Source: Cryptosporangium aurantiacum
Lineage (GTDB): Bacteria; Actinomycetota; Actinomycetes; Mycobacteriales; Cryptosporangiaceae
NCBI RefSeq assembly: GCF_900143005.1
Contig: NZ_FRCS01000002.1
Span: 186,001 to 250,000, forward strand
Length of the DNA: 64,000 nucleotides
Direction of reading: 5' to 3'
Positions 30,215 to 41,288 of the stretch are shown here, piece by piece. The stretch's first letter is position 1. The number at the start of each line of letters is the position of its first letter. A program made the position numbers and the translations under genes. The notes below the pieces were generated by a model. That model did no database searches and was not told the DNA's origin. It worked only from the letters and a program-made list of their open reading frames with translations.

Positions 30215-30829
30215 TTACCGCAGGAGCCAGCCGTTCTCGTCCGCGAGACGGACCGCCTCAGCGCGGGTTCGCGCGCCGGTCTTGCCGATCGCGGCGGACA
30301 GGTGATTACGGACCGTTCCCTCCGAGAGGTGCAGTTCCTTCGCCAGGTTGGCGACCGTGCCGCCGGCGCGGGCCGCGCGCAACACATCGGTCTCCCGATC
30401 GGTGAGCGGGCTCGCGCCGGTGGCGAGCGTCTCGGCCGCGAGCATCGGGTCGACGACCCGGAGGCCGGCGTGCACTCGGCGAACCGCGTCGGCCAGCTGC
30501 TTCGCCGGGGTGTCCTTGACGACGAAGCCGCTGGCACCGGCCTCCATCGCCCGGCGGAGGTAGCCGGGCCTCCCGAACGTCGTGACGATCAGGACCTTGC
30601 AGGTCGGCACCGCGTCCCGCAGTGCCTTGGCGGCCGCGATCCCGTCCAGCCCCGGCATCTCGACGTCGAGCAGCGCGACGTCGGGGTGAGCGTTCCGGGC
30701 GGCGTCGACCACCTCGTCGCCCCGCCCGACCTCGGCGACGACCGTGAGGTCCGGCTCCAGGTCCAGCAGCGCCGCCAGCGCTCCTCGCACCAGCGCCTGA
30801 TCGTCGGCCAGCAACAGGCGCACGGTCAT
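30215..30829 (-). CDS. NarL/LuxR-type response regulator (DesR-like)
   Basis: The 204-aa protein has the receiver domain (ADD at 8-10, Asp55 in LLDVEMPGLDG, TTFGRPGYLRRAMEAGASGFVVKD) and a LuxR-type helix-turn-helix (LTDRETDVLRAARAGGTVANLAKEL). Its ATG at 30829 overlaps the kinase stop by four bases. The F-G-R-P-G-Y-L-R-R segment is typical of the DesR subgroup, which often controls ABC transporters and membrane lipid enzymes. Confidence 0.93.
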   Translation of the reverse strand: MTVRLLLADDQALVRGALAALLDLEPDLTVVAEVGRGDEVVDAARNAHPDVALLDVEMPGLDGIAAAKALRDAVPTCKVLIVTTFGRPGYLRRAMEAGASGFVVKDTPAKQLADAVRRVHAGLRVVDPMLAAETLATGASPLTDRETDVLRAARAGGTVANLAKELHLSEGTVRNHLSAAIGKTGARTRAEAVRLADENGWLLR

Positions 30830-31971
30830 TTGACTCCAGTCAGCGTCACACGAAGTAGGAATCCACCCAGGGGCGAGCGTCCGACCGTGAGCGCACCACC
30901 AGCGGCCTCGACCCGTTCCCGCAGGCCGGTCAGGCCGTTGCCCATGCCCTCGTCGGTCGGCCCGCGGCCGTCGTCGGCCACCTCGACGCGGTCCCTGGTG
31001 ACCGTGACGACGCAGCGCCGGGCCGCCGCGTGCCGGACGACGTTCGTGACGCCCTCCCGCACCACCCAGCCGAACAGCTCACGCCGCTCCCCCGGCACCT
31101 CGTCGAGTGCGGTCGGCAGCTCGGCGTCGATATCCGCGGCGTCCAGCGCGGCGCGGGCACCGGCCAGCTCCCCGGCGAGCGTGACCGGCCGGTAGCCACT
31201 GACCGTCCGGCGGACGTCGGCGAGCGCCTCCCGGGAGAGCCGCTCCAGGTCGGCGACCTCGCGTCCGGCTCGCTCCGGATCGACGGTGATCAACCGTCCG
31301 GCGAGCTCGGCCTTCACCGTGATCACGGTCAGCGAGTGGCCGAGGATGTCGTGCAGGTCGCGGGCCGTGCGGGCGCGTTCCTCGGCGACCGCGAGCTGGG
31401 CGATCGTCTGCTGCGCGGCGAGCAGTTCGATGTTCCGGGCGATCATCTGCCGGATGCCCCACACCGCCAGCGCGGCCACGATCATGCTGAACACCAAGCT
31501 GGCCCCGGACTCGGTCTCCGGGAACGCGTCGAGTACGAGGACCACCACGACGAACACCCCGGTCAGCGTGAACGCGTGCCGCGCCGGAAGCACCATCATC
31601 GCCGCCGCGGCGATGTAAACCAGCGTCGCCAGCGACTCGCCACGGCAGGCGGGCACGGTCAGCGCCGCCAGGGCCAGCAGGACGCCGATCGCGATCCACC
31701 CGCGGCGGACCTCGTCCTCCCACAGCCGGAAGCTGGTGCTCCGGACGAACGTGAAGATCAGCAGGTACCAGGCCGAGAACGCGAGCAGCGTGACGACGCC
31801 GTACACCCGCAGGGCGAGGCTTTCGTGGGCCAGTGCCGTCTGCGCCGGTTCGATCAGGAAGAACAGCCAGACGCCGCCGAAGAGCCAGCCGAACCGGGCG
31901 ATCCGCGGACGATGTCCGTGCGACCCGCTGAGTGGTGGTGCGGGGGTAGCAGCGCTGGTCACGGCTGCCAC
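30826..31971 (-). CDS. DesK-type sensor histidine kinase
   Basis: The 381-aa kinase has five to six helices in residues 25-180, HisKA_3 with phospho-acceptor His207 (RTARDLHDILGHSLTVITVKAEL) and HATPase_c (N-box EGVTNVVRHAAA, DDGRGPTDEGMGNGLTGLRERV). It corresponds to the DesK group, thought to sense membrane thickness or fluidity. It is coupled to the DesR-like regulator. There is no desaturase gene beside it; the adjacent MacB-like transporter is a candidate target. Confidence 0.92.
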   Translation of the reverse strand: MAAVTSAATPAPPLSGSHGHRPRIARFGWLFGGVWLFFLIEPAQTALAHESLALRVYGVVTLLAFSAWYLLIFTFVRSTSFRLWEDEVRRGWIAIGVLLALAALTVPACRGESLATLVYIAAAAMMVLPARHAFTLTGVFVVVVLVLDAFPETESGASLVFSMIVAALAVWGIRQMIARNIELLAAQQTIAQLAVAEERARTARDLHDILGHSLTVITVKAELAGRLITVDPERAGREVADLERLSREALADVRRTVSGYRPVTLAGELAGARAALDAADIDAELPTALDEVPGERRELFGWVVREGVTNVVRHAAARRCVVTVTRDRVEVADDGRGPTDEGMGNGLTGLRERVEAAGGALTVGRSPLGGFLLRVTLTGVK

Positions 31972-32045: not shown

Positions 32046-32065
32046 CATACGGTCAAGACTGCATC
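32046..32065 (+). promoter_or_regulatory. Candidate TetR operator upstream of the monooxygenase operon
   Basis: CATACGGTCAAGACTGCATC matches 16 of 20 positions of the perfect palindrome CATACAGTCAAGCCTGTATG found upstream of the TetR gene at 40584-41195. It lies 38 bases before the monooxygenase start. The TCAAG core and CATAC left arm are identical, indicating one regulator for both operons. Confidence 0.65.
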
Positions 32066-32103
32066 TTTCTTTGCGAATCACAGCCAGCGCCGGAGGTGAA
32101 CGC

Positions 32104-33600
32104 GTGTCCGAGGATCTCCCCACCGAGGTACGAGTCCTGGTGGTCGGCGCCGGATTCGGCGGCCTGGCCGCCGCCGCGCAACTCCGTGCGGCCGGCTACC
32201 GCTCCCCCGACGACCTCTTACTGATCGAGCGCGCCGACCAGGTCGGCGGCACCTGGCGCGACAACACGTATCCGGAGTGCGCCTGCGACGTCCAGTCGGT
32301 GCTGTACTCGTTCTCGTTCGCCGCGAACCCCGACTGGACGCGGTCGTACGGACGCCAGCCGGAGATCCTGGACTACCTGATCCGCATCACGCGCCAGACC
32401 GGGCTGCTCGAGCACGTTCGATTCGGGTGCGAGCTCATCGGCGCCGCCTGGGACGCCGCGAGCGCTCGGTGGGTGGTCGAGACGTCGCGGGGCGTCGTCC
32501 GGGCACAGGTGCTGGTCGCCGCGACCGGTGCGCTCTCCGCACCACGCCTGCCCGACTTACCGGGCATGGACTCGTTCACCGGCGACGCGTTCCACTCCGC
32601 GCGCTGGAACCACTCGGTCTCGCTGGCCGGTAAGCGTGTCGGGGTGGTGGGCACCGGGGCGTCCGCGGTCCAGTTCGTGCCCGCGATCGCGCCCTCGGTC
32701 AGCCACCTGACGGTCTTCCAGCGGACGCCGGGCTGGGTGATACCGCGCGGTGACCGTCCCTACCTGGCTTCCGAGCGTGCGCTGTACCGGCGCTGGCCGG
32801 TCACCCAGAAGATCTCCCGCGGCGCGGCGTACCTCTACCGCGAGGGCTACGTGATCGGCATGGCCCACTACCCGCAGTTACTGCCGGCGATGCAGGTCAT
32901 CGCCGAGTCGCACCTGCGCAAGCAGGTGCCCGATCCGGAACTGCGGGCCAAGCTGCGGCCACCGTTCAAGCTCGGCTGCAAGCGGGCGCTGCTGTCCGAC
33001 GACTGGTTCCCCGCGCTGCAGCGGCCGAACGTCGAGCTGGTGACGTCGGCCGCCGCCGAGGTCACCCCGCACGGCCTGATCGACGCGACCGGCCGGAAGC
33101 ACGAGCTCGACGTGCTGATCTTCGGCACCGGCTTCACCCCGACCGAACCGCCGGTAGCACGGTTACTCAGCGGCAAGGACGGGCGAACCCTCGCCGAGAG
33201 CTGGGACGGGAGCCCGCGTGCGTACCTGGGCCTGACCGTGCACGGCTTCCCCAATATGTTCCTGATGTACGGCCCGAACACCAACCTCGGGCACAGCTCG
33301 ATCGTCTACATGCTGGAGTCGCAGGCCCGGTACATCGTGGACGCCGTGCGGACGCTGGACCGGGCGAACCTCGCGTCGCTGGAGGTGCGCGCGGACGTCG
33401 AGGACTCGTACGTGACCGACGTCCAGCGTCGGCTCGGGCACTCGGTCTGGAACAAGGGCGGGTGTGCGAGCTGGTACCTCGACCGGACCGGCCGGAACAG
33501 CGTGATGTGGCCGACGTTCACCTGGCGGTACCGGCAGGCCACGCGACGCCTGGACGTGGACAGCTACCACCTGAAAGCGGTGCCCGCGCATGCACTATGA
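32104..33600 (+). CDS. Baeyer-Villiger-type flavin monooxygenase
   Basis: The 498-aa flavoprotein has the FAD motif GAGFGG at about 17, the GGTWRDNTYPECACDV motif near 50, the NADPH motif GVVGTGASAVQF near 182 and a near-canonical Baeyer-Villiger fingerprint (F-x-G-x3-H-x3-W-N in FTGDAFHSARWN, where Pro or Asp is usual at the end). It likely inserts oxygen into ketones to give esters or lactones; flavin-containing S- or N-oxygenation is an alternative. GTG at 32104 follows CGGAGGTG. The first gene of a three-gene operon, overlapping choD-like by 11 bases. Confidence 0.88.
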   Translation: MSEDLPTEVRVLVVGAGFGGLAAAAQLRAAGYRSPDDLLLIERADQVGGTWRDNTYPECACDVQSVLYSFSFAANPDWTRSYGRQPEILDYLIRITRQTGLLEHVRFGCELIGAAWDAASARWVVETSRGVVRAQVLVAATGALSAPRLPDLPGMDSFTGDAFHSARWNHSVSLAGKRVGVVGTGASAVQFVPAIAPSVSHLTVFQRTPGWVIPRGDRPYLASERALYRRWPVTQKISRGAAYLYREGYVIGMAHYPQLLPAMQVIAESHLRKQVPDPELRAKLRPPFKLGCKRALLSDDWFPALQRPNVELVTSAAAEVTPHGLIDATGRKHELDVLIFGTGFTPTEPPVARLLSGKDGRTLAESWDGSPRAYLGLTVHGFPNMFLMYGPNTNLGHSSIVYMLESQARYIVDAVRTLDRANLASLEVRADVEDSYVTDVQRRLGHSVWNKGGCASWYLDRTGRNSVMWPTFTWRYRQATRRLDVDSYHLKAVPAHAL

Positions 33601-35302
33601 CGTCCTGGTGGTGGGCAGCGGCTTCGGCGGCAGCGTCACCGCGCTCCGGCTGACCGAGAAGGGCTACCGGGTCGGCGTCCTGGAGGCGGGGCAGCGGTTC
33701 GACGAGTCGACGCTCCCCCGCACGTCCTGGGATCTGCGGCGGTACCTCTGGGCGCCGCAGATCGGCTGTTACGGGCTGCAGCGGATCCACCTGCTGCCGG
33801 ACGTCCTGGTGATGGCGGGAGCGGGGGTCGGCGGTGGTTCGCTGAACTACGCGAACACGCTGTACAAGCCGCCCGCGAAGTTCTTCGAGGACCCGCAGTG
33901 GGCCGGTATCACCGACTGGGCCGACGAGTTGGAGCCGCACTACGACCAGGCGCGCCGCATGCTCGGCGTCACGCTCAATCCGTCGGAGACACCGGCCGAT
34001 CTCGTCATGCGGCAGGTCGCGGACGAGATCGGAGCCGGTGACACCTGGCGGTCGACGCCGGTGGGGGTGTTCTTCGGGCCCACCGGCGGAGACCCGTTCT
34101 TCGGCGGTGCGGGGCCGGATCGGGTGGCGTGTACCGAGTGCGGGTCGTGCATGACCGGGTGCCGGGTCGGCGCGAAGAACACGCTGACGAAGAACTACCT
34201 GTACCTGGCCGAGAAGGCCGGTGCCGAGGTGCACCCGCTGACGACCGTCCGGACGCTCCGTCCCGGTTCGTCGGGATGGGTGGTCGAAACCGTCCGGAGT
34301 GGACGACGAAGCGGGCGCCGCACTTTCACCGCCGACCACGTCGTCCTCTCGGCCGGCACGTACGGCACCCAGCGGCTGCTGCACGCGATGCGGGACGCTC
34401 GCGTGCTCCCGAACCTCTCGCCCCGGCTGGGCGAGCAGACCCGGACGAACTCCGAGGCGGTGCTGGCCGCGACGTCCCGTCATCGGCGGACCGACTACAC
34501 CCGCGGCGTCGCGATCACCGGATCTTTCCACGTCCCTACACCCCCACCCACCCCCTTGAGCGGAACCAAAAGCGTCATCACGCACATCGAGCCGGTCCGG
34601 TACGGGCCGGGCAGCAACGTGATCGGGCTGCTGCAGACGCTGCTCGTCGACGGTGACGGACGGGCGCCCCGGTGGCTCTCCGCGCTCGGCGTCGCCGCCC
34701 GGAACCCGGGCGCGCTGCTGCGCAGCCTCTCGGTGCGGCACTGGTCGGAGCGGACCGTGATCGCGCTCGTCATGCAGGAGCACGACGACTCGCTGGTCGT
34801 GTCCGGCAAGCGTGGGCTGTTCGGCGGGCAGCGGCTGCGAACCCGCCCGGGGCCGGGCGAACCGCCGCCGCGCTGGATCCCGGTGGGGCACGACGTGGTG
34901 CGGCGGCTCGCGCGTCTCGTGGACGGTGACCCGGGCGGTTCGTTCGCCGACCTGGCGAACATCCCGATGACCGCGCACTTCATCGGGGGGTGCGGCATGG
35001 GCGTGTCCGCCGAGGACGGCGTCATCGACCCGTACCACCGGGTGCACGGCTACCCGGGGCTCTCGGTGGTGGACGGCTCCACGGTGTCGGCGAACCTCGG
35101 GGTCAACCCGGCGCTGACGATCACCGCGCTGGCCGAGCGGGCCGCGTCGTACTGGCCGAACAAGGGCGATGCCGACCTCCGCCCGGAGCTCGGCGCCGCG
35201 TACCAGCGGGTCACCCCGGTCGCACCTCGTTCGCCGGTGGTGCCCGCATCGGCGCCTGGCGCGCTACTGTTCCCGACCATCCGCCTCCGGGAGGGCGCAT
35301 GA
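33590..35302 (+). CDS. choD: GMC-type oxidoreductase, ChoD-like (cholesterol-oxidase family)
   Basis: The 570-aa protein has the FAD-binding motif VVGSGFGGSV at the N-terminus, GAGVGGGSLNYANTLYKPP near 82, the substrate-domain hallmark CTECGSCMTGCRVGAKNT near 180 and a C-terminal VVDGSTVSANLGVNPALTI segment. Layout and length fit the mycobacterial ChoD group, annotated as cholesterol oxidases though their true substrate is debated. It is not exported (no signal peptide). It overlaps the monooxygenase and acetoacetate decarboxylase genes, so an alcohol-to-ketone step next to ketone oxygenation is plausible. Confidence 0.87.
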   Translation: MHYDVLVVGSGFGGSVTALRLTEKGYRVGVLEAGQRFDESTLPRTSWDLRRYLWAPQIGCYGLQRIHLLPDVLVMAGAGVGGGSLNYANTLYKPPAKFFEDPQWAGITDWADELEPHYDQARRMLGVTLNPSETPADLVMRQVADEIGAGDTWRSTPVGVFFGPTGGDPFFGGAGPDRVACTECGSCMTGCRVGAKNTLTKNYLYLAEKAGAEVHPLTTVRTLRPGSSGWVVETVRSGRRSGRRTFTADHVVLSAGTYGTQRLLHAMRDARVLPNLSPRLGEQTRTNSEAVLAATSRHRRTDYTRGVAITGSFHVPTPPPTPLSGTKSVITHIEPVRYGPGSNVIGLLQTLLVDGDGRAPRWLSALGVAARNPGALLRSLSVRHWSERTVIALVMQEHDDSLVVSGKRGLFGGQRLRTRPGPGEPPPRWIPVGHDVVRRLARLVDGDPGGSFADLANIPMTAHFIGGCGMGVSAEDGVIDPYHRVHGYPGLSVVDGSTVSANLGVNPALTITALAERAASYWPNKGDADLRPELGAAYQRVTPVAPRSPVVPASAPGALLFPTIRLREGA

Positions 35303-35955
35303 TCTTGACCGCGATCCCGAGCGTGCCCGAGTCGCTGCTGGCGTCCGACGTCGAGTTGCCGACGTCGTCCGCGCCCGCGCCCTGGCGCACCCGCATCGAC
35401 GCGGCGTTCTGGTGGCACCGCGCGGCTCCGGACGCCAGGTCCGTGCTGCCGCCCGAGCTGGCGGCGTCCGGCGTCATCCCGGTGACGCTCGGCGCCTTCG
35501 TGCGGTACCGGGAGACCCCGGTCGGGCCGTATTCGGAGGTGTTCGCGAGCCCGGTGCTGCTCCGCAAGTGGCCGGTGCCGCCGATGCACATCCCGTTCAT
35601 GGCGGTGGACTCGCTGACGTCGGTGCACGGCGGGCGGACGAACTGGGCGCTACCGAAGACGCTGGCCTCGTTCGAGTGGAGCGGCGCAGCGGTCTCGGCG
35701 GTCGGCGACGGGTGGAAGGTCTCCGCGGAGGCCCGTGCATCCACGCCGCAGTTCCCGATGGCGGGTGGGCTTCGCACGCTTCAGGTCTTCGACGGGGAGC
35801 CGAGGAGCGCCTGGGTCGGCATGCACGGCCGAGCCCGCCTGGGCCGCGTGACCGTCTCCGCCACCGGGCCGACGTTGTCCCGCTGGCTGACTCCCGGACG
35901 CCACCCCGCCCTACTGATCAGCGACTCCACCATGAACGTGGGCGCCCCGCGCTGA
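35299..35955 (+). CDS. Acetoacetate decarboxylase family protein
   Basis: The 218-aa protein resembles acetoacetate decarboxylase: VTLGAFVRYRETPVGPYSEV includes the conserved Glu (Glu80) and GGRTNWALPKTLASFEW the Schiff-base lysine position (Lys120). It may decarboxylate or otherwise process a beta-keto acid or enol-type intermediate; several relatives have non-decarboxylase activity. ATG at 35299 overlaps the choD-like stop by four bases. Its transcript ends at two strong hairpins. Confidence 0.82.
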   Translation: MILTAIPSVPESLLASDVELPTSSAPAPWRTRIDAAFWWHRAAPDARSVLPPELAASGVIPVTLGAFVRYRETPVGPYSEVFASPVLLRKWPVPPMHIPFMAVDSLTSVHGGRTNWALPKTLASFEWSGAAVSAVGDGWKVSAEARASTPQFPMAGGLRTLQVFDGEPRSAWVGMHGRARLGRVTVSATGPTLSRWLTPGRHPALLISDSTMNVGAPR

Positions 35956-35960
35956 GCCGA

Positions 35961-36000
35961 ACGGAGGGCCGGGAGCTCCCATAGCGTCCCGGCCCTCCGT
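35961..36000. terminator. Hairpin terminator 1 between convergent catabolic operons
   Basis: A perfect 14-bp stem (ACGGAGGGCCGGGA with TCCCGGCCCTCCGT) and a 12-base loop start five bases after the decarboxylase stop. Confidence 0.85.
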
Positions 36001-36008
36001 GTCCGTGG

Positions 36009-36034
36009 GGGTGGCGCCCGTCAGGGCGCCACCC
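36009..36034. terminator. Hairpin terminator 2 between convergent catabolic operons
   Basis: A perfect 11-bp stem (GGGTGGCGCCC with GGGCGCCACCC) and four-base loop GTCA lie five bases from the convergent fadB-like stop. Together with terminator 1 it insulates the two operons. Confidence 0.85.
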
Positions 36035-36039
36035 GGCCC

Positions 36040-38199
36040 CTAGGCGAGCGCCTCGCGCAGGGACCCGGCCTCGATCGCCTTCTCGCGCAGCAGCGCGGGC
36101 GGGCGGAACCGCTCACCGAACTTGTCGGCGAGCTCGTCGGCGCGGGCCACGAAGCCCGCGACGCCGCCGTCGTACTGATCGACGAACTGGGCCACGCCGC
36201 CGAAGCCGGGCGGGAAGCCGATGCCCATGATCGAGCCGATGTTCGCGTCCTCGACCGACGTGAGCACGCCCTCCTCGAAGCAGCGCGCGGTCTCGACGGC
36301 CATGATGAACAGCAGCCGGTCCTGGGCGTCCTTGAAGCGGATCGGGTCGTTGCCCGCCCCGGGGGCGAGCCCGTCCACGTTCGGCGGGAACACCTCGGCG
36401 AGGCCCGGCCACACCTTCTTCGACGGCTCCCAGTCGAAGAAGCCCTTGCCCGCGGCCTTACCGGTGCGGTCGTGCTCCTTGACCAGCGTCCGGAGCACGG
36501 CGATGCCCGGGTGGGCCGCTGCGCCGCCGCCCTGCTCCTCGATCTTCAGCGGCAGGGTCAGCGTCACCTCGTCGAGCAACGTCAGCGGACCGGCGGGGAA
36601 GCCGGCCTGCAGCGCGGCCCGCTCGATGCTCATCGGCGGCAGGCCCTCGGCCACCAGCGCCGCACCCTCCATGACCATCGTCCCGAACACCCGGCTGGTG
36701 AAGAACCCGCGACTGTCCTTGACGACGATCGGCGTCTTGCCGATCGCCCGGGTGTAGTCGTACGCCTTCGCGACGGCTTCCGGCGACGTGTTCGCGCCGA
36801 CGATCAGCTCGATCAGCGGCATCTTGTCCACCGGGGAGAAGAAATGGACGCCGACCAGGTCGGGCAGCCCGGCGCCCGCCTGCAGATCGGTGATCGGCAG
36901 CGTCGAGGTGTTCGACGTGATCAACGCGTCCGGCGCCGCAGCCGCGGCCTCGGCGAGCACCTTGTGCTTCAGCGCGGTGTCCTCGAACACCGCCTCGATG
37001 ACGAAGTCGCATCCGGCGAGGTCGGCGGCGTCCGCGGTGGCGAGGATCCGGCCCAGAAGCGCGTCCCGCTTCTCGGGCGTGCTCCGTCCGCGAGAGACCT
37101 GCTTGTCGAGGATCTTCTGCGAGTAGGCCTTGCCCTTTTCGGCCGCCTCGACCGAGACGTCCTTGAGGACGACGTCGATACCGGCCTTGGCGGTGACGTA
37201 GGCGATGCCCGCGCCCATCATTCCGGCGCCGAGAACCCCCACCTTGCGGGGCTTGAACGCAGGCACGTCCGCCGGGCGGCTGCCGCCACCGTTGATGCGG
37301 TTCAGGTCGAACCAGAACGCCTGGATCATGTTCGTCGAGGTCTGACCGGTGGCCAGGTCGGCGAAGTAGCGTCCCTCGATCACGAACGCGGTGTCGACGT
37401 CGACCAGCAGGCCCTCGACCGCGGCGCAGAGGATGTGGTGCGGCGCGGGCAGGTGCGCGCCCTTGAGCTGCTTGCGAAGGTTCGCGGGCAGCGCGGGCAG
37501 GAACCCGGCCAGCGAGGGCGACGTCGGCGAGCCGCCCGGCACCTTGTAGCCCTTGGCGTCGTAGGGCTGGGTGGCCTGCGGGTTGGCCTCGATCCACTCG
37601 CGAGCCTTGACCAGCAGCTCGGCCGGGTCGCTGACGACGTCGTGCACCAGCCCGAGCTGCTGCGCGGCCGGGGCCCGCAGCTGCTGGCCCTGGAGCAGCA
37701 CCTGGGTCAGCGCGTTGACCAGACCGAGCAACCGCACCGAACGGACGACGCCCCCGGCGCCGGGCAGCAGGCCCAGCGTCACCTCGGGAAAGCCCAGCTT
37801 CGTGGCGGGCGTGTCCAGCGCGACGCGGTAGTGAGCGGCCAGCGCGATCTCCAGGCCGCCGCCGAGCGCGGCACCGTTGATCGCGGCGGCCACCGGCACG
37901 CCGAGCGTCTCGATCGTCCGCAGCCGGCGCTTGATGTCGGTGACCGTGGTCAGCAGCTGCTCCCGGTTCTCCGGGCGCGCCTGGATCAGCTCGTCGAGGT
38001 CACCGCCGGCGAAGAACGTCTTCTTCGCGCTGGTGATGATGACGCCCTTGAGCGTCTCCTTCTCGGCGACCAGCCGGTCGACGGTCTCACCGAGCGCGGC
38101 CTGGAACGCGGCGTCCATCGTGTTCGCCGACGAGTCAGGGGCGTCCAACGTCAACGTGACGACGCCGTCCTCGGCGCGGTCCCAACGAATCGGGCTCAC
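36040..38199 (-). CDS. fadB: FadB-type multifunctional beta-oxidation enzyme
   Basis: The 719-aa protein is a fusion of an enoyl-CoA hydratase/isomerase (residues 1-190; [21 protein letters not shown] and [17 protein letters not shown] with the catalytic Glu pair) and an L-3-hydroxyacyl-CoA dehydrogenase (Rossmann [17 protein letters not shown] near 325, catalytic His in [18 protein letters not shown]-terminal HCDH domains). It performs hydration and dehydrogenation in beta-oxidation with FadA. ATG overlaps the fadA stop by four bases; it is the last gene of a TetR-led operon. Confidence 0.95.
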
Positions 38200-39410
38200 A
38201 GTCGCTCCACCACCGTTGCGATTCCCATTCCGCCTCCTACGCAGAGAGTCACCAGGCCGTAGCGCTGGTCACGGCGTTCTAGCTCGTCGATCACGGTGCC
38301 GAGCAGCATCGCGCCGGTGGCACCGAGCGGGTGCCCCATCGCGATCGCGCCGCCGTTGACGTTGACGATGTCCTCGGAGAACCCGGTGTCGGCGATGAAC
38401 CGCAGCACGACCGCCGCGAACGCCTCGTTCATCTCGACCAGGTCGATGTCGTCCACGGTCAGGCCGGCCTTCGCCAGCGCTTTCCGGGTCGCGGGCGCAG
38501 GGCCGGTGAGCATGATCAGCGGGTCCGCACCGGAGACGGCGGTCGACAGGATCCGCGCCCGGGGCGTCAGACCGTGCCGTCGCCCGGCCTCCTCGTTGCC
38601 GATGACGACCAGCGCGGCACCGTCCACGATGCCGGACGAGTTGCCCGCGGTGTGCACGTGCTCGATCCGCTCGACCCAGTGGTACCGGTCCAGCGCGACC
38701 GCGTCGAAGCCACCCTGGTCACCGATGGCCGCGAACGACGCGGGCAGCCCACCCAGCGACTCGACCGTGGTGTCCGGCCGCACGTGCTCGTCCTGGTCGA
38801 GGACGACGTCGCCGTTCAGGTCCGTGACCGGCACGACCGACCGCGCGAAGTACCCGTTCGCCCAGGCCTTGGCGGCGCGCTGCTGCGAGCGGGCGGCGTA
38901 GGCGTCGACGTCGGTGCGGTTCCAGCCGTGCAGCGTGGCGATCAGGTCCGCGCCGATGCCCTGCGGGACGAACCCGGTGTCGTACGCGGTCTCCGGGTCC
39001 TGCGCCCAGGCGCCGCCGTCCGACCCCATCGGCACCCGGGACATCGCCTCGACGCCGCCGGCGAACACCAGGTCCTCCCAGCCGGAGCGGACCTTCTGCG
39101 CGGCGATGTTCACGGCTTCCAGCCCGGAGGCGCAGAAACGGTTGAGCTGGACGCCCGCGACCGTCTCCGGCAGGCCGGACGCGATCGCCGCGGTCTTCGC
39201 GATGTCACCGCCCTGCTCGCCGATCGGGCTCACGACGCCCAGGACGAGGTCGTCGACGCCGTTCGCGTCGAGGTTCGGGTTGCGGTCACGGACCGCGTCG
39301 ATCAGACCGGTGACCAGCGATACCGGTTTCACCGAGTGCAGCGACCCGGTCTTCTTGCCGCGACCGCGCGGTGTGCGGATCGCGTCGTACACAAAAGCTT
39401 CGGTGCTCAT
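38196..39410 (-). CDS. fadA: Acetyl-CoA C-acyltransferase (thiolase)
   Basis: The 404-aa thiolase has the acyl-accepting Cys in [18 protein letters not shown], the His motif [15 protein letters not shown] and the second Cys in LCVGGGMG. It cleaves 3-ketoacyl-CoA with CoA. ATG at 39410 is the start; it follows the acyl-CoA dehydrogenase gene by 16 bases and is coupled to fadB. Confidence 0.95.
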
Positions 39411-39426
39411 TGGACGCCCTCCGGGT

Positions 39427-40572
39427 CTACACGCCGAGCGAACGCCCGACGATCTCCTTCATGATCTCGGTCGTTCCGCCGTAGATCGTGGTGATTCGCG
39501 TATCGGTGTACGCCCGCGCGATCGGGTATTCGCGCATGTAGCCGTAGCCGCCGTGCAGCTGGAGGCAGCGGTCGACGACGCGCTTCTGGAGCTCGGTCGT
39601 CCACCACTTGGCCATCGCGGCGTCGACGACCGTGTACCGGCCCGCGTTGTGCTCGAGAATCGCCTTCTCGACGTACGTCTCGGCGAACTCCAGCTCGGTG
39701 GCGATCTCGGCCAGGACGAACCGGTTGTGCTGGAAGCTGCCGACCGGGCGTCCGAATGCCTTTCGTTCTTTCGCGTATTCGAGCGTGCGGTCGAAGACCG
39801 CGCGCGCACCGGCGACCGCGGCCACCGCGATCGAGAGCCGTTCCTGCGGCAGCATCGTCATCAGATGGATGAAGCCCTGGTTGAGCTCACCGACCACGTT
39901 GGACGCCGGGATCCGCACGTCGTCGAAGAACAGCTCGGCCGTGTCCTGGGCCTTCATGCCGATCTTGTCGAGGTTGCGGCCGCGCTCGAAGCCGGGCATG
40001 CCCCGCTCCACCGCGATCAGCGAGGTGCCCTGGGCCGCCTTCGCGTCCGGGTCGGTGCGAGCGACGACGAGGACGAGATCCGCGTGGATGCCGTTGGTGA
40101 TGAACGTCTTCGAGCCGTTGAGGACGAAGTCCGACCCGTCGCGCTTCGCGTGCGTGGTGATGCCCTGCAGGTCGGAGCCGGCGCCGGGCTCGGTCATCGC
40201 GATCGCGGTGATGATCTCGCCGGAGCAGAAGCCCGGTAACCAGCGCTGCTTCTGCTCGTCGGTGGTGAGTTCGGTCAGGTACGGCGCGGTGACGTCGTTG
40301 TGCAGCGAGAAGCCGACGCCGCTCGCCCCGACCGCGATCGTCTCCTCGGTGAGGACCGCGTTGTAGCGGAAGTCCTTGATGCCGCCGCCGCCGTACTCCT
40401 CCGGGACGTCGGTGCCGAGGAGGCCCTGCGCGCCCGCCGCGGTCCAGATCCGGCGGTCGACGAGACCCTCGGACTCCCACTCCTCGTGGAACGGGACGAC
40501 CTCTTTGGCCATGAACGTGCGGGCGGTCGAGCGGAATGCCTCGTGGTCGTCTTCGTAAAGAGTGCGGCGCAT
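39427..40572 (-). CDS. Long-chain-type acyl-CoA dehydrogenase
   Basis: The 381-aa flavoprotein has the [16 protein letters not shown] motif, GSKTFITNG, and the C-terminal [12 protein letters not shown] and [11 protein letters not shown]. The position that carries the catalytic Glu in medium- and short-chain enzymes is Gly (IYGGT rather than IYEGT), as in long-chain and isovaleryl types, where the base lies earlier; here [10 protein letters not shown] offers that Glu. ATG at 40572 follows AAAGGACGCGAGG. Second gene of the TetR operon. Confidence 0.93.
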
Positions 40573-40583
40573 CCTCGCGTCCT

Positions 40584-41195
40584 TTACTTCGTGGGAGGGG
40601 AGTTCCGGGTCGCGAGCATCTCCGCCCAGGCGTCCAACGCCCTGGACCGTTGGCTCGCGGTGAAGTCGGTGAGCAGGCCGCTCACCCCGCGGCCGAGCAG
40701 CAGGTCGAGCGTCATCTGCTGGAGCAGCGGGTCGGACGTGAGGTTTTCGCGGCAGATCTCGCGCAGGTCGATCGCGAGCCGCGCCTCGACCGGGATCAGC
40801 AGTTCGCGGAGCGCCGGGTCGCTGCGGGCGGCGACCCAGAGCTCGATCGTCGCCGCGTAGAGCGGGCCGGAGAGCAGGTCGGCGAGCAGGTCGAGGGTCC
40901 GGCGGACCTTGTTCTCCTCGTTCGCGAGCTTCGCCACCTCGGCGCGGAGGACGGCGGCGCGCTGCTCGGCGAGGTGCCCGACCGCCGCGGCGACGAGCTT
41001 CTCCTTGGTGCCGTAGTGGTGCAGCTGGGCACCGCGGCTGACCCCGGCCCGCTGGGCGACCGCGGTCGTCGTCGTGCCGACGTAACCGTCCTCGACGAGG
41101 CTGGCGAGCGTGGCGTCGAGAAGCCTCGCGCGGGTGGCGGCACTCCGGTCCGCCTGCGTCCGCCGGGCGACCTGAGTCTCGGTAGGGCTCGCCAC
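40584..41195 (-). CDS. TetR-family regulator of the catabolic regulon
   Basis: The 203-aa protein has an N-terminal TetR domain (ATRARLLDATLASLVEDGYVGTTTTAVAQRAGVSRGAQLHHYGTK is split over helices 1-4, with the recognition segment VSRGAQLHHYG) and a C-terminal ligand-binding domain of about 130 residues. GTG at 41195 follows GAGGAAGG. The perfect palindrome 57 bases upstream and its near copy before the 32104 operon indicate autoregulation and control of both operons. The inducer is unknown, probably an acyl-CoA or a pathway intermediate. Confidence 0.92.
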   Translation of the reverse strand: MASPTETQVARRTQADRSAATRARLLDATLASLVEDGYVGTTTTAVAQRAGVSRGAQLHHYGTKEKLVAAAVGHLAEQRAAVLRAEVAKLANEENKVRRTLDLLADLLSGPLYAATIELWVAARSDPALRELLIPVEARLAIDLREICRENLTSDPLLQQMTLDLLLGRGVSGLLTDFTASQRSRALDAWAEMLATRNSPPTK

Positions 41196-41251
41196 TCGCC
41201 ACCTTCCTCACACCGTTCGGTTCAGGCGTCCTGAGTCTCCGGTGCCAAGCG

Positions 41252-41271
41252 CATACAGTCAAGCCTGTATG
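41252..41271 (-). promoter_or_regulatory. Candidate TetR operator (perfect palindrome)
   Basis: CATACAGTCAAGCCTGTATG has perfect 7-bp arms (CATACAG/CTGTATG) around a six-base centre. It lies 57 bases upstream of the TetR gene start, and on the minus strand contains TTGACT, which may be the -35 element. A copy matching at 16 of 20 positions precedes the monooxygenase operon. Confidence 0.75.
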
Positions 41272-41288
41272 TTTTTGATCTCCTGTGG

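Follow-up and report, generated by a model that had tools for sequence, protein, structure and literature searches.

The two convergent operons in the window (the whole stretch of 64 kb that was analysed) make up, as judged from sequence, a local TetR regulon with two operators, O1 and O2, to which a single TetR-family regulator is predicted to bind. An earlier note on this DNA had spoken of one TetR operator shared by both operons; instead, there is one TetR and each operon carries its own site. The features are as follows:

32046..32065, operator O2, reading CATACGGTCAAGACTGCATC, 38 bp upstream of the BVMO start codon
32104..33600, + strand, BVMO-like (Baeyer-Villiger-type) type I flavin monooxygenase, 498 aa
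33590..35302, + strand, GMC-family alcohol oxidase/dehydrogenase (ChoD-like), 570 aa
35299..35955, + strand, acetoacetate-decarboxylase (ADC)-superfamily protein, 218 aa
35956..36039, two strong GC-rich hairpins filling the 84 bp that separate the convergent operons (predicted -66.5 kcal/mol for all 84 bases)
36040..38199, - strand, FadB, alpha subunit of a trifunctional enzyme
38196..39410, - strand, FadA thiolase, beta subunit of a trifunctional enzyme
39427..40572, - strand, long-chain-type acyl-CoA dehydrogenase (ACAD), 381 aa
40584..41195, - strand, TetR-family regulator, 203 aa, start codon uncertain
41252..41271, operator O1, exact 20-bp palindrome CATACAGTCAAGCCTGTATG preceding the TetR gene

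Gene families were assigned by Pfam and NCBIfam, which agreed with the identities named in the earlier note. Overlaps of 11 bp between the BVMO and GMC genes and of 4 bp in both the GMC/ADC and the FadA/FadB pairs support operon coupling, and the pair of hairpins between the operons likely brings about termination in both directions. A domain search found in neither operon an esterase or lactonase, the activity needed after a BVMO. Genes for a histidine kinase and a response regulator (window 30215-31971) are divergent from the BVMO operon, O2 lying in the shared intergenic region.

O1 consists of the half site CATACAGTC, a 2-bp centre AA and the other half GCCTGTATG, and contains on the TetR strand the candidate -35 hexamer TTGACT. 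O2 was identical to O1 at 16 of 20 bases and the next best match anywhere in the 64-kb window reached only 13 of 20, so that the palindrome and its partial copy, as first reported, were both recovered. By base composition, matches of at least 16/20 were expected 0.009 times per window and around 1.3 times per 9.58-Mb genome (71% G+C), as against approximately 1.5e-5 times in the 132-bp intergenic region before the BVMO gene, or 6e-5 times with the composition of that region itself; the O2 match is significant because of its location and its recurrence at the orthologous place in the three congeners out of three. O2 follows a conserved TAGACA-17-CAAGAT/CAACAT, whose hexamers were picked out visually in the conserved columns, and with only 16/20 identity it may be bound more weakly than O1. 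A strict sigma-70 scan called no promoter at O1 or O2, and for this reason the placement of the operators on promoters is something that we infer.

The 60 relatives drawn included three congeners (G001-G003) and one genome from a different genus of the same family (G004). Its relatives and its 71% G+C point to an actinobacterium as the probable source of the window. The row BVMO-GMC-ADC facing FadB-FadA-ACAD-TetR was kept in all three congeners (L112-L114; proteins 75-95% identical), and both operons thus co-occur, as had been anticipated, in 4/4 genomes of the genus examined. Against the window palindrome, the congener O1 sites scored 20, 20, and 19 of 20, and the O2 sites 16, 16, and 15. In four-way upstream alignments, which take in gaps and some coding bases, 19/20 columns were invariant in O1 vs. 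29/145 outside, and 18/20 in O2 vs. 51/170 outside. The genome-wide motif search that the earlier note had suggested was run with the pattern CATACNGTCARGNCTGNATS (two mismatches at most) and returned exactly two sites, O1 and O2, in three of the four genomes (G000, the window genome, G002, and G003); in G001 it returned O1, O2, the other-strand reading of the O1 palindrome and two stray places with two mismatches. The reversed-pattern control gave 0 matches in all four genomes. At the level of sequence, the regulatory arrangement is genuine and shows good conservation across the genus.

A looser pattern, derived from other genera (two mismatches at most), recovered O1 in all four genomes and O2 in three, missing that of G001, and stood at noise level (matches vs. 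reversed control, 5 vs. 5 in G000 and 4 vs. 6, 8 vs. 6, and 5 vs. 7 in G001-G003). One of its matches, CTTGCTGGACTGTTTG, recurred in three of the four genomes and was rejected as a third site; in each of these it lay inside a long open frame, its flanks were alike, and it was taken as coding on that account. In the family relative G004, the GMC homologue (64%) had one internal stop, the 4.4 kb around it held no BVMO or ADC match, and FadB matches stood at 30% along most of the protein and nowhere above 40% in parts of it. Another FadB-like gene (31-32%) was present in G000-G003, and a second FadB-type gene (44%; G000:C7:409685-411754) appeared only in the window genome among the five searched; the window FadAB is therefore not the only set of its genome. 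The window genome also has a second GMC gene (60%; G000:C5:448406-450082), with similar copies in the three congeners.

The window TetR matched PF00440 (TetR_N; 43.4 bits), and the 50 fold matches listed for its model (mean pLDDT 81) were TetR-type or unnamed transcriptional regulators, although the fold search does not discriminate ligands. The TetR_N domain, the all-helical modelled fold and the palindrome at its own promoter region place it in the TetR family, with DNA binding predicted. Its recognition helix, AGVSRGAQLHH, was identical in 24 TetRs of the window, Rhodococcus and Atu groups and also in L086, whereas the remaining 18 rows of the tree had other letters at this position. An operator core, CAG[GT]CT[TG]GACTGT[AT]TG, preceded the related TetR in 13/13 Rhodococcus-type loci (12 plus L180) and in 4/4 Atu-type regions from two other families (L116-L119, corresponding to G012, G018, G055, and G025), with TetRs around 50% identical. 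In these four regions the TetR heads Atu-type operons with AtuA, biotin carboxylase and ACAD-like genes (AtuA in L116, L118, L119, and G018; biotin carboxylase in L116, L118, and L119; carboxyl transferase in L116). Twelve genomes were scanned for the core (six of the 12 Rhodococcus records, G317, and 5 Atu-type genomes), and each had exactly one zero-mismatch copy, by coordinates at the related TetR; one extra place with one mismatch occurred in G352, and the reversed core, allowing one mismatch, gave 7 matches in 6 of the 12.

The core was absent from L120-L122, where the TetRs of L120 and L122 carry another helix and that of L121 falls outside the tree, and from L115, which has only a 15/20 site and whose TetR (L086) bears AGVSRGAQLHH. 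In the tree, L086 joined the window clade (100/98). Clade tests were made after dropping five long-branched rows (L098, L107, L109, L110, and L111): a clade of the window and Rhodococcus TetRs alone was rejected (p-AU 0.028), the same clade with L086 added was not (0.28), and a single clade of all TetRs with AGVSRGAQLHH was marginally rejected (0.045). The label "atu" in the tree reflects a checked neighbouring AtuA for G012, G018, G025, and G055, and genus only for G030, G039, and G047. AtuA was sought in seven genomes, and in G000 it lies on contig C6, distant from both operons. One TetR/operator pair is conserved while its cargo differs by family, being an Atu-type operon, the BVMO-GMC-ADC trio alone, or the trio plus FadAB.

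Outside the genus, 80 loci were kept from the scan for GMC relatives. The trio row was found in 12 of them, all from Rhodococcus or Rhodococcoides, with TetR (41-45%), BVMO (54-57%), GMC (65-67%), and ADC (42-47%); the sequence around each of these loci contained no FadAB or ACAD match. Among the other 68, a BVMO appeared in L073 (46%) and a remote one in L072 (27%), and no ADC match was found in the sequence around each, so that, within this scope, most GMC relatives stand outside a trio. A search of 296 genomes from the class found an ADC-family protein in 23, the window genome included. Fourteen of the 22 other ADC places, including those with BVMO or GMC neighbours, were examined as 20-kb regions: nine held BVMO (at least 41%), GMC (at least 53%), and ADC together, two (L178 and L179) had GMC and ADC but no BVMO closer than a remote FMO (27-28%), and three (L182-L184) gave no GMC or BVMO match. 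The short loci of the remaining eight places showed no BVMO or GMC, and GMC thus accompanied ADC in 11 of the 22. In L184 and elsewhere in family f28 (G072, G094, G162, and G173), the stretches examined around ADC-family homologues (39-46%) matched neither BVMO nor GMC.

Regulators of the trio varied, with a different TetR in L171 and L178 and a divergent AraC type in L172. The gene row of G317 (L180) was as in Rhodococcus. The trio of L172 (L172:2906-12893) is accompanied by upstream SDR, AMP-ligase and DUF5938 genes and by the divergent AraC-type regulator. The trio is a separate cassette, which elsewhere occurs without FadAB and under other regulators. A catalase gene followed it in 11 of the 12 Rhodococcus loci (not in L003; example L009:12348-14033) and in L180, which is consistent with a predicted H2O2-producing oxidase activity of the GMC protein; no catalase match was found in the window, in the three congener regions or in the other trio regions.

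The BVMO aligned with 6er9 (cyclohexanone monooxygenase; 263 bits) in two stretches covering both halves. The type I BVMO fingerprint is FxGxxxHxxxW(P/D); the window protein reads FxGxxxHxxxWN, its three congener counterparts end in WD, and other relatives in WN, WD or WR. The comparison covered 25 related BVMOs (24 from trio-type loci plus L073), every one of which retains Asp62, Arg294, and Trp457, positions that we take to be functional (Arg294 as the catalytic-type Arg); the remote FMOs of L178 and L179 do not. With Arg294 kept and similarity to solved BVMOs extending across both halves, the protein is probably a type I BVMO. The GMC protein was only distantly related to solved cholesterol oxidases (71-79 bits), although His463 (HFIGGC) and Asn506 (GVNP), presumably the residues of the cholesterol-oxidase active site, aligned with their motifs; its score with the NCBIfam cholesterol oxidase NF058674 (501 bits) fell below the cut-off of 850. 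The sterol or cyclic substrate proposed earlier therefore found no specific support.

The ADC protein scored 37.7 bits with PF06314 (cut-off 29.8). Glu80 and Lys120 were invariant in 10 and in 13 sequences, and in the alignment 3c8w places PKKLA against the PKeLA of the profile; we assume Lys120 to be the candidate Schiff-base lysine and Glu80 the nearby Glu of the superfamily. All six fold matches with probability of at least 0.99 were of ADC type, for a low-confidence model (pLDDT 56; below 50 for residues 87-136, Lys120 included) that was used for the fold only. Fold, Pfam domain and the Lys/Glu pair are those of the ADC superfamily, in which acetoacetate decarboxylation by this protein is putative. 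The superfamily also includes other activities. FadB had its best solved match in 4b3h FadB of Mycobacterium tuberculosis (808 bits), and FadA matched 3svk (645 bits) and M. tuberculosis FadA Rv0859 (4b3h; 627 bits); judging from these scores, they are trifunctional-enzyme subunits of the M. tuberculosis type and not a special set for cyclic compounds. The ACAD matched 2pg0 (431 bits) and the mitochondrial long-chain specific acyl-CoA dehydrogenase (398 bits).

Gene content, sites, their conservation and number per genome, and the same core before related TetRs are the observations on which we base a model that we hold to be probable, in which one repressor, acting at two operators, keeps an oxidative front end and a beta-oxidation back end under joint control; its binding, repression, ligand, reaction order and substrate are all predicted. 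The TetR-type repressor would bind the two copies of the 20-bp palindrome. O1 covers the candidate -35 of tetR-acad-fadA-fadB and would provide autorepression, whereas O2, at or just after the candidate promoter of the BVMO-GMC-ADC operon, would repress the partner operon. Both operators would be released by a ligand, for which a CoA thioester or some other intermediate derived from the substrate is the likeliest candidate, so that front and back ends would come on together. In the front end, the GMC flavoprotein would oxidise an alcohol to a carbonyl, the BVMO would insert oxygen into a ketone, and the ADC-superfamily protein, as a Schiff-base enzyme, would handle a beta-keto acid or related carbonyl; the long-chain acyl-CoA dehydrogenase and the trifunctional enzyme would form the back end. 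The substrate class is most likely a long-chain or isoprenoid secondary alcohol or ketone, and the TetR most likely the repressor of a pathway that feeds such compounds into beta-oxidation.

Other readings of the same data were weighed. O2 could be a chance resemblance, the BVMO operon being regulated on its own; a 16/20 match is indeed expected about once per genome by composition and relaxed scans are noisy, but with an expectation of 1.5e-5 to 6e-5 within that very intergenic region, the same place occupied in 3/3 congeners with 18/20 columns invariant, and two sites only in 3/4 genomes, we regard coincidence as very improbable. Still harder to credit is that the palindromes act as intrinsic terminators or leader attenuators rather than operators. 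The stretch 41251-41272 is called terminator-like by the scan owing to a T run on the + strand, and a T-rich run also comes after O2; the run at O1, however, is opposite to TetR transcription, where an attenuator of the TetR leader would not work, and the palindrome core precedes related TetR genes with the matching recognition helix in other families.

The reading that competes most directly for the function of the regulator is that it is a fatty-acid (acyl-CoA) regulator of the trifunctional-enzyme operon to which the trio is a secondary add-on, a surplus inducing both operons and no single substrate passing through six enzymes. The match of FadA and FadB to the M. tuberculosis trifunctional enzyme, the separability of the trio from FadAB in Rhodococcus and other families, and the presence of FadR with stearoyl-CoA among the fold matches of the TetR, together with many unrelated TetRs, speak for it. 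The same kind of TetR elsewhere precedes the trio alone or an Atu-type operon, from which it follows that a straight fatty acyl-CoA is not necessarily its ligand, and the genomes hold other FadB-like genes (31-32% in G000-G003, 44% in G000); we consider this reading possible, but on the unlikely side. More doubtful, to our mind, is that the trio relieves stalled beta-oxidation as a ketone-cleavage shunt. In that case a beta-keto acid resistant to thiolase, e.g., a methyl-branched one, would be turned into a ketone by ADC-type decarboxylation, the BVMO would convert the ketone into an ester that is then hydrolysed, and the GMC oxidase would return the alcohol towards the acid level, with both halves re-entering the trifunctional enzyme; if so, a single TetR repressing the trio along with that enzyme would spell out the coupling.

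With regard to our preferred model of a co-derepressed front and back end, the earlier proposal that the sites tie six enzymes together holds in so far as there are one TetR, two sites and co-occurring operons (4/4 genomes), and does not extend to a single dedicated six-enzyme pathway, given the M. tuberculosis-type FadAB and the separable trio. For the terpenoid idea, also raised before, support is indirect only and comes from other families, where Atu-type operons stand under the same core. With a recurrent three-enzyme oxidative cassette tied both to a trifunctional-enzyme operon and to a TetR operator that is defined, substrate discovery becomes tractable, and repressor and operator together offer a candidate biosensor for what the trio degrades.

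All the enzymes are of known kinds. The literature searched (enzyme combination, Rv0859/Rv0860 with TetR, and 12-bp operator cores) yielded no account of either the trio or the operator, and the apparently co-repressed combination and the trio itself seem to be undescribed. In the VirS-mymA operon of M. tuberculosis, a BVMO gene lies beside a divergent AraC-type regulator, a layout that the trio locus L172 resembles; the window differs in having a TetR as regulator as well as GMC and ADC, and its cluster lacks lipase, SDR and FadD genes. Both subunits of the M. tuberculosis trifunctional enzyme have counterparts here (627 bits to FadA, Rv0859; 808 bits to FadB, Rv0860), but in the window the pair is encoded together with a TetR and a long-chain-type ACAD in a single operon. 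The actinobacterial Atu-type operons carry the operator core and recognition helix of the window, whose two operons contain no AtuA/C/F gene. As in the acyclic terpene utilisation system (AtuR/atu) outlined in the available part of PMC9973270, a repressor gene stands beside acyl-CoA enzymes. The AtuR operator quoted there, AGCAAGCGCTTGG, differs from that of the window and also from the L116-L119 sites, which places the window outside an AtuR regulon so defined. Subterminal or secondary-alcohol oxidation with a BVMO is the closest described chemistry, as far as the portion of PMC12753306 on the Sad cluster for secondary-alcohol/subterminal alkane oxidation goes; it needs an esterase (SadA/SadB, next to the BVMO SadD), absent from the two operons. 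Compared with that account, the window has a GMC flavoprotein in place of an alcohol dehydrogenase, no clustered esterase, an additional ADC-superfamily gene and an apparently co-regulated trifunctional-enzyme operon. The two systems are alike, within the same portion of PMC12753306, in the predicted sequence from alcohol to ketone to BVMO-derived ester, with products able to enter beta-oxidation.
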